Below, one piece after another: positions 36,166 through 38,712 of a DNA stretch of 64,000 bases; the first letter of the stretch is position 1; each line of letters begins with the position of its first letter. The notes beneath the pieces are model-generated. The model saw only the letters and a program-made list of their open reading frames with translations. It did no database searches and was not told where the DNA came from. Origin of the DNA: Chryseobacterium sp. Marseille-Q5410. Lineage in GTDB: Bacteria > Bacteroidota > Bacteroidia > Flavobacteriales > Weeksellaceae. Both the position numbers and the translations under genes were made by a program. The stretch spans positions 124,001-188,000 of the forward strand of contig CAMPOT010000002.1 of assembly GCA_946892665.1 (NCBI GenBank). Reading direction: 5' to 3'.

Positions 36166-38379
36166 ATGAAAAATATTACATCCGTACTATTAATTTCTTC
36201 TTTGGCGATAAATACCGCCTGTACCACCATGAAAAATACAGAAGCACAATCCACCGAGATTCCTGCCCCGGACGCTAGTTTGGCTACAAACCCTTTTATG
36301 AAAAAAAGCAGTTTGCAGTATCAAACACCGGAATTCGACAAAATTAAAAACGAAGATTTCAAACCTGCTTTCGATTATGGAATGAAAGTTCAGCTTGCAG
36401 AAATTGAAAAAATTGCGAACAGTACTGAAGCTCCAACTTTTGAAAACACGATTCTCCCTTTAGAGACTAGTGGAGAAGTATTGAAAAGAGCCCAAATTGT
36501 ATTTTATAATTTGACAGGCTCCAATACCAATCCAGCTTTACAAAAACTGGAAGAAGAGTATGCTCCAATTTTCTCAGGGTTGAGCGATAAAATTTATCTT
36601 AATGAAAAACTCTATTCGAGAATTAAATCTATTAAAACTGATGGTTTAGGTTCTGAAGAAAAGAGAGTTTTAGAATTGTATAAAACCAATTTCGAAATTG
36701 CCGGGGCTAATCTTTCTGAAGAAAATAAAGAAAAGGTAAAGAAAATTAATGAAGAATTGGCAACACTTTCCACTCAGTTTTCTAATAAATTATTGGATGC
36801 GAGAAAGAATGGAGCAGTTTTAATTTCTGATGTAAAAGAACTTGATGGTCTTTCCGCTGACGAATTGGCCGCGACAGCGGCAGATGCAAAAGCTGCGGGG
36901 TATGAAGGAAAATATTTGCTCACTTTGCTTAATACTACACAGCAACCACTTTTGCAGAATCTGAAAAACAGAGCGACAAGAGAAAAACTCTTCAAAGCAT
37001 CTTGGTACCGCGCGGAAAAAGGAAATGCGGATGACACCAGAAGCATTTTGGAAAGACAGGCAAAACTAAGAATGGAAAAAGCGCATCTTTCTGGTAAAAA
37101 ATCTTTCGCAGAATGGAAACTGCAGGATCAGATGGCGAAAACGCCGGAAAATGCAATGAATCTTTTAGCACAACTCGCAAAACCAGCTGTAGAAACTGCT
37201 AAAAGAGAAAGCGATGAAATTCAAGCTTTGATTGATAAGCAAAAAGGAGGCTTCACGGTAGAACCTTGGGACTGGAATTTCTATTCTGAACAAGTGAGAA
37301 AAGCAAAATATGACCTTGATGAAAACGAAATCAAACCGTATTTTGAAATATCGACCGTGTTGGAAAAAGGGGTGTTCTATGCGGCGGAGAAATTCTATGG
37401 AATTACTTTTAAAGAAAGAAAAGATTTGCCGGTTTATCATCCGGATGTTGTCGCTTACGAAGTTTTCGACCGCGACGGAAAATCAATGGCGCTTTATTAT
37501 CTGGATTTCTATACCAGAAGCAACAAAAACGGAGGTGCCTGGATGAGCAATTTTGTTGAACAATCGCATCTTCTTGGGCAGAAACCAGTGATCGTAAATG
37601 TTTTCAACTATCAGAAGCCGGCTGACGGAAAACCTTCACTGATTTCTTATGATGATGTTTCTACAATGTTCCATGAGTTTGGACATACTTTGCACGGTCT
37701 TTTTGCGAACCAGAAATATGTGTCAATTTCCGGAACCAATACGCCGAGAGATTTTGTTGAATTTCCTTCTCAAATCAACGAGTTTTTTGCTTTGGAACCT
37801 TCAGTTCTGAAAAATTATGCACTTCATTACCAAACCAAAAAGCCAATGCCACAGGCTTTGGTTGAAAAGATAAAAAAAGCGGCAAGCTTTAATCAGGGAT
37901 ATTCTACGACGGAGTTGGTTTCTGCTGCCATTATAGATATGAATTGGCATTCCGTAACCGATGAATCTCAACTGAAACCAGCTTTGGAATTTGAGAAAGA
38001 AGTTTTAGCCAAATATGGTTTCAACTTGAAGCAAGTTCCACCGAGATATCATACACCTTATTTCGCACACATTTGGGGTGGTGGTTATTCGGCCGGTTAT
38101 TACGCTTACATGTGGAGTGACGTGCTGAATGCGGATGCGTGGGATTGGATCACCACTCATGGCGGAATGACGCGTGAAAATGGAGATCGTTTCCGGAAAT
38201 ATATTCTATCGGTTGGAAACTCAGTGGAATTAAATCAAGCGTATAAAGATTTCACTGGCAGAACGCCGGATATTAAGCCATTGCTGATTAATAAAGGGTT
38301 TGTTTCCCAAAATAAAGGAAAAGTAAGTCTAAAAGCTGGTGAAACTACGCTAAACCAAAAAGATTTAAAAAAAAAATAA
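36166..38379 (+). CDS. dcp: M3-family metallopeptidase (peptidyl-dipeptidase Dcp-like), with split C-terminal Ig-like domain
   Basis: A 737-residue zinc peptidase, probably a lipoprotein (signal with NTAC near residue 18). It should cleave dipeptides from short peptides in the envelope. The catalytic motif MFHEFGHTLHGLF is at about residues 501-513, with the third ligand glutamate in FVEFPSQINEFF. The peptidase domain ends near LLINKGFVSQ. A further 22 residues (NKGKVSLKAGETTLNQKDLKKK) look like the first strands of a bacterial Ig-like domain whose remainder is in the -1 frame beyond an A10 tract (38367-38376). I start at ATG 36166. Confidence 0.93.
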   Translation: MKNITSVLLISSLAINTACTTMKNTEAQSTEIPAPDASLATNPFMKKSSLQYQTPEFDKIKNEDFKPAFDYGMKVQLAEIEKIANSTEAPTFENTILPLETSGEVLKRAQIVFYNLTGSNTNPALQKLEEEYAPIFSGLSDKIYLNEKLYSRIKSIKTDGLGSEEKRVLELYKTNFEIAGANLSEENKEKVKKINEELATLSTQFSNKLLDARKNGAVLISDVKELDGLSADELAATAADAKAAGYEGKYLLTLLNTTQQPLLQNLKNRATREKLFKASWYRAEKGNADDTRSILERQAKLRMEKAHLSGKKSFAEWKLQDQMAKTPENAMNLLAQLAKPAVETAKRESDEIQALIDKQKGGFTVEPWDWNFYSEQVRKAKYDLDENEIKPYFEISTVLEKGVFYAAEKFYGITFKERKDLPVYHPDVVAYEVFDRDGKSMALYYLDFYTRSNKNGGAWMSNFVEQSHLLGQKPVIVNVFNYQKPADGKPSLISYDDVSTMFHEFGHTLHGLFANQKYVSISGTNTPRDFVEFPSQINEFFALEPSVLKNYALHYQTKKPMPQALVEKIKKAASFNQGYSTTELVSAAIIDMNWHSVTDESQLKPALEFEKEVLAKYGFNLKQVPPRYHTPYFAHIWGGGYSAGYYAYMWSDVLNADAWDWITTHGGMTRENGDRFRKYILSVGNSVELNQAYKDFTGRTPDIKPLLINKGFVSQNKGKVSLKAGETTLNQKDLKKK

Positions 38380-38678
38380 ATTTCGTCATCAGTAATGATA
38401 CTTCAGAGGTTATAGGAACAGGAAATTTTTTTCTAATTGAAAAATGGAACGGTAAGGCTTGGGTAAAGGAAAAATATACCACCAACCGCATCTTTACAGA
38501 TATTGGATACGATATAATACCCGGTGAAAAAAGAAATTTTGAGACCGATGTTTATGGTTATTATCCCAATTTAACAAAAGGGAAATACAGAATTACCAAG
38601 ACCTACCATTATAATAAAGAAGTACCAATTACTACCGATGAAGTGTATAAGATTTCTACAGAGTTTAGGATAGACTAA
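38376..38678 (+). pseudogene. Ig-like domain remainder, in -1 frame after the M3 peptidase
   Basis: No ATG, GTG or TTG opens this frame near its beginning, yet it is open for 100 codons and reads as a coherent bacterial Ig-like (Big_14-type) domain: INFVISNDTSEVIGTGNFFL, IEKWNGKAWVKEKYTTNRIF, TDIGYDIIPGEKRNFETD, YPNLTKGKYRITKTY, ending DEVYKISTEFRID. Adding one A to the ten-A run at 38367-38376, or a -1 slip there, joins it in frame to the peptidase. It may be a phase-variable or slippage-made tail, a decayed fusion, or a sequencing artefact in the homopolymer. Confidence 0.7.
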
Positions 38679-38687
38679 AAAAAGAAG

Positions 38688-38712
38688 CCGCAGATTTTCT
38701 GCGGTTTTTTTT
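38688..38712 (+). terminator. Terminator after the Ig-like frame
   Basis: A 7-bp GC-rich stem (CCGCAGA / TCTGCGG, loop TTT) with a T8 tract, starting 10 bases after the stop of the -1 frame. That it follows the Ig-like frame rather than the peptidase stop supports transcription through both. Confidence 0.88.

Follow-up and report, generated by a model that had tools for sequence, protein, structure and literature searches.

A ten-A tract at the end of an M3 peptidase gene as a probable transcriptional slippage site for adding an Ig-like domain

Why does the reading frame of an M3 family peptidase close directly behind a run of ten A's, when the rest of an Ig-like domain lies open in the -1 frame just beyond it? 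The question is raised by a locus within 64,000 nucleotides of DNA from Chryseobacterium sp. Marseille-Q5410, the whole of which is called ‘the window’ here. An earlier note on this DNA had left several readings side by side: slippage or -1 frameshifting that yields two forms of the protein, phase variation, a recently broken fusion, or a homopolymer sequencing error. The features concerned, in window coordinates, are as follows.

36166..38379, + strand: reading frame of an M3 family peptidyl-dipeptidase (Dcp-like), 737 aa, ATG at 36166, stop TAA at 38377-38379
36166..36222, + strand: signal-like N-terminal stretch with a conserved Cys (residue 19) at its end, from the sequence
38302..38366, + strand: linker and first Big_14 strand in the peptidase frame, the joined domain match reaching back to profile position 4
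38367..38376, + strand: candidate slippage tract, A10 in four of six tailed genomes, A9 in one and A8 in one
38377..38379, + strand: 0-frame stop that would close the short form, from the sequence
38376..38678, + strand: -1 frame with the remainder of the Big_14 Ig-like domain, from the PF20251 match, pN against pS, and a start-codon scan
38688..38712, + strand: intrinsic-terminator-like hairpin CCGCAGATTTTCTGCGG and T run, directly 3' of the tail stop

The sequence agrees with the earlier note that an A10 run at 38367-38376 brings the peptidase frame to its end, with the TAA directly after it, such that the 0-frame reads ...TTA AAA AAA AAA TAA across the junction. The note was likewise right that the -1 frame is open for 100 codons, which we count from the last A (38376-38675, stop at 38676-38678), and that a hairpin and T run (38688-38712) stand behind this tail frame rather than behind the peptidase stop. 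The five other tailed loci described below have a comparable hairpin and T run behind their tail stops; a terminator scan listed the window's hairpin in its minus-strand reading only, and its total was no higher than in shuffled sequences (4 found, against a mean of 3.9).

The body of the protein, which ends with the codons for KGF (38293-38301), belongs to the M3 family (Dcp type), with a PF01432 domain (Pfam, E 1.5e-134) and an HEFGH sequence that we take to be the M3 zinc motif. Its score against the NCBIfam model PRK10280 (Dcp) is 902.7 bits, under the equivalog cut-off of 944. The E. coli Dcp structure 1y79 shares this body over residues 41-711 of the query (E 1.4e-232), and the match holds no counterpart to the first 40 residues or to what follows residue 711, the tail stretch being part of the latter. 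At the N-terminus, Cys19 is invariant across five aligned tailed proteins and the -3 position before it is N or T, giving what we assume to be a non-canonical lipobox; the stretch is probably a lipoprotein signal, and the peptidase is probably exported.

Taken alone, the tail is a Big_14 domain (Pfam PF20251, E 5.9e-16), covering positions 21-103 of the 104 in the profile and scoring 58.8 bits against a gathering cut-off of 27. Joined across the run, the match extends to positions 4-103 and scores 63.6 bits, which bears out the claim that the two parts make one coherent domain; in the genome G032, where they are naturally fused in frame, the domain scores 74 bits. A comparison of the tail profile with solved structures gave a best match of E 0.3.

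A search for the peptidase found it in 118 of 149 relatives, and 30 M3 loci of a single genus, the window's own counted in, were read. Five carry the tail. In the 25 tail-less loci, all Kaistella orthologues, the stop falls 2 or 3 codons after KGF and the linker and first-strand stretch is missing. A profile built from five tails and run against 320 genomes of the bacterial family (E<=1e-5) matched in 17, and the tail sits on an M3 peptidase in six of these: the window's genome, G007, G011 (Kaistella palustris DSM 21579), G013, G032 and G047, the last a MAG from another genus. The remaining 11 hold different Big_14 proteins (12 loci read), with one to three copies of the same domain in a single open frame and, unlike the split tail, a Met upstream of the domain. 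In an order-level sample of 395 genomes, five had a Big_14 match, two being M3 tails already found and three other proteins. For the bacterial family, then, the note was right to suspect that M3 peptidases seldom carry an Ig-like tail.

The relatives were compared over the peptidase C-terminus, a check that the earlier note had proposed. The window's genome, G007, G011 and G013 all have A10 followed by TAA with the tail in -1, and G047 has A9 and then TTAA, with the 0-frame stop one codon later and the tail again in -1. The out-of-frame arrangement is therefore kept in five of the six, with the 0-frame stop right behind the run or one codon beyond the codon that ends it; G032 has A8, and its tail is in frame with the peptidase.

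Within the window's own genome there are 36 distinct runs of A>=10, and when a split frame was defined as at least 60 open codons on either side of the run, in different frames, only two of the 36 qualified: the peptidase gene and dnaX. The arrangement is beyond chance, in that it recurs in other species and is nearly unique among the A>=10 runs of its genome. At a different run (L075, G000:C1:1343771), an A10 lies in frame within one ORF that is open on both sides, where truncated products would be expected if the polymerase slips.

The dnaX gene of this genome (L077, C1:1458827) has A11 with its tau part in -1, the same direction as in the peptidase gene. All 36 genomes of the genus that were searched have its head, whereas the M3 tail occurs in six out of the family's 320. 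Thirty Kaistella dnaX loci were read, and in 28 the tract is A10-A12 and the tail lies in -1. Both exceptions have A9, in frame in G032 (L125) and in the third frame in G033 (L122). G032 has 11 A10 windows to 801 A8 runs, as opposed to 56 and 933 for the genome of the window, and similarly low counts were obtained for G023 (6 to 452) and G033 (8 to 531). Runs of A>=10 are scarce in the G032 and G033 assemblies, and homopolymers in them may have been truncated; for G032, either its homopolymers are truncated or slippage was abandoned in its lineage at the peptidase gene and dnaX alike.

What, then, keeps the tail open? The tails are 51-70% identical to one another, and in all 15 pairs among the six species pS is 0.66-0.84 and pN 0.18-0.29, giving pairwise pN/pS of 0.24-0.43; the corresponding values in the M3 bodies are 0.69-0.81 (pS) and 0.05-0.14 (pN). 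Synonymous sites in the tail are saturated, yet its frame is open in six of six cases and out of frame with the peptidase in five of six, and in a neutral simulation with assumed rates 1-2% of tails stayed open. Purifying selection in the face of saturated synonymous sites argues that the tail protein is made and kept, and we conclude from these comparisons that the tail is in all likelihood translated and useful. Pseudogene decay is rejected in view of pN/pS and of the same simulation, its rates being assumed.

These figures also bear on the readings in which the run is a homopolymer sequencing error or the locus a recently broken fusion, such that the tail would be either dead or truly in frame. 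The in-frame tail of G032, and the third-frame dnaX tail behind A9 in G033, do indicate that some assemblies may truncate runs, but the same frame relation is present in separate assemblies, including that of Kaistella palustris DSM 21579 and the MAG from the other genus, pN in the tail is far below pS, and few tails survive the neutral simulation. With five species keeping the frame relation under purifying selection, error and recent breakage are largely excluded, and we give them a barely appreciable chance of being correct.

The tail was said to have no start codon of its own, which stands for the junction and needs amending further along, where the window's tail frame has a single ATG, GTG or TTG, a GTG at codon 90. 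In the five out-of-frame genomes the stretch of tail frame from its last stop up to the run offers no start (in the window, none among the 11 open tail-frame codons upstream of the tail). Inside the tail, ATG, GTG or TTG is first met at codons 90, 55, 21 and 30 in four of them and, as a TTG, at codon 3 in G047. With no start upstream, and none before codon 21 except in G047, translation most likely enters the tail out of the peptidase frame, a conclusion that is weakest for G047. These start-codon positions make a separate tail gene, read by re-initiation, unlikely; in G047 alone, re-initiation at the TTG is conceivable.

Synthesising these findings, we consider it probable that the A10 is a programmed transcriptional slippage site from which a short and an Ig-tailed form of the peptidase are produced. 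We suggest that in some of the transcripts the tract comes out one A longer, or two shorter, as RNA polymerase passes it. Faithful transcripts would then give the 737 aa Dcp-like M3 peptidase, stopping right behind the tract, and slipped transcripts a longer one (about 837 residues) in which the C-terminal Big_14 Ig-like domain is complete; the tract would presumably set the ratio in which the cell makes these two versions of what is probably an exported enzyme. As to what the tail does, we can only speculate that it attaches the enzyme, or contacts substrate, at the cell surface. In keeping with slippage, a run of about nine or more lies at the junction (A9-A10) in five of the six tailed genomes, and the same five keep a selected downstream frame in -1; conservation strongly supports the part of the earlier note that proposed two forms of the protein, made by slippage or by a -1 frameshift. 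Against the need for slippage, the in-frame fusion of G032 requires no shift in its assembly. The all-A spelling of the tract is no more than mildly improbable (about 0.05) given the bias towards AAA among Lys codons (81%), and we therefore do not use the spelling as proof.

The same two proteins would be obtained if the ribosome, instead of the polymerase, slipped by -1 on A_AAA_AAA ahead of the stop. This motif, which also serves ribosomal -1 slips, is in the 0 frame in five of the five out-of-frame loci, and by decoding, the long protein from a ribosomal shift is identical to that from one extra A. What tells against it lies downstream and in the length of the tract. RNAalifold on the five sequences gave -0.92 kcal/mol and seven pairs, one with changes on both sides, and the window's 84 nt of downstream RNA has a z of 0.37, with 122 of 200 shuffles folding as well; the stimulatory structure that usually, if not absolutely, accompanies ribosomal frameshifting was not found. 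With neither a conserved nor an unusually stable downstream structure, no ribosomal stimulator is apparent, which leans away from this reading. Moreover, the tract has 9-10 A's, beyond the seven that a ribosome needs, and in dnaX it has 10-12 at nearly all loci read. We regard ribosomal frameshifting as unlikely, and infer that the shift takes place at transcription, not translation.

Tract length is itself open to change, A10 tracts being mutable, and if slipped-strand copying altered the DNA tract, the tail would be switched on and off between cells. Lengths of 8, 9 and 10 were indeed observed, one of them in frame. Under such phase variation, the five out-of-frame cases would not be expected to fall into one frame class, as they do with one genome compared per species; the chance of this is about 1/81 with G032 excluded and the cases treated as independent, which they are not, as they share descent. 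The essential gene dnaX, moreover, has the same design in the genus. Phase variation is accordingly disfavoured, and seems to us very improbable; the readings first offered for this locus are supported in part.

For transcriptional slippage at such a junction, the nearest anatomical match would appear to be the type VI secretion gene tssM1 of Citrobacter rodentium, whose protein is unrelated to the M3 peptidase. This gene likewise has a long A run (A11) directly before the stop, and slippage, shown experimentally, inserts additional A's, which brings a C-terminal domain onto the protein and yields two length variants, a layout like that of the peptidase gene (PMC4256274). By that account both forms of TssM1, and their ratio, were shown to be needed, whereas the evidence for the peptidase is comparative and its tail is an add-on missing in most orthologues.

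Two-ORF dnaX genes share with the peptidase gene an A tract at the frame junction, a short 0-frame product and a shift for the long one. In Antonov et al. (2013, PMC3711429), 17 such genes are recorded, nine with 10 A's, and transcriptional realignment is suggested for those with 10 A's. The Thermus dnaX slippage case is covered by Baranov et al. (2005, PMC1088944) and a 2016 review (PMC5009743); in Thermus the 0 frame at an A9 gives the long product, unlike in the peptidase gene (PMC1088944). Because the review gives Chlorobium dnaX as an A_AAA_AAA-type candidate with possible ribosomal stimulators, the dnaX parallel is no proof that the shift is transcriptional.

How the tail came to be where it is can be approached through its distribution. 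With the M3 genes arranged in a tree of 31 rows, six changes are required to account for the six that are tailed, at least four of them forced by well supported branches, and the number is no lower than with shuffled labels. The window's nearest orthologue, in G025, is tail-less at 98% identity, and the window's additional stretch lies 3' of the KGF codons and 5' of the terminator. In the tail tree G007 groups with the window and G047 (95/91), and in the body tree with the other three Kaistella (100/98). This discord, together with the patchiness of the tail, is what exchange of 3' ends by horizontal transfer could produce, which its absence from the nearest orthologues also suggests; an old tail with many losses is possible. 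No second Big_14 copy that could have served as a source was found in the window's genome (one match at E<=0.1), nor any tail remnant downstream of the 25 tail-less M3 loci (tblastn, E<=1). We put forward tentatively, as a possibility and with some doubt, that A10, stop and Big_14 form an exchangeable cassette with which recombination swaps plain M3 3' ends between related species; a conserved peptidase would then repeatedly gain or lose an optional domain under the control of slippage.

Were transcriptional slippage confirmed, the locus would be a case in which slippage governs what share of an enzyme, probably one at the cell surface, carries an optional domain. To our knowledge, few cellular genes make two proteins by this means, and the peptidase adds comparative evidence of selection on the shifted frame, with dnaX as a control in the same genome. 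No M3 peptidase with slippage or frameshifting was found in the literature searched, which covered few subscription journals. A gene caller working frame by frame would be expected to overlook the tail.

Two further observations concern Big_14 itself. One genome of the genus (G022) has the domain on another hydrolase, an isoaspartyl-peptidase-like protein, as we presume from its sequence, that bears an in-frame Big_14 tail (L043, match at 1501) with no A run at the place corresponding to the tract. A nearly identical protein with two Big_14 domains, in an open frame of 307 codons, occurs in three genomes, one of them of another genus (L045 in G003, L046 in G016 and L044 in G184), suggesting recent horizontal transfer.
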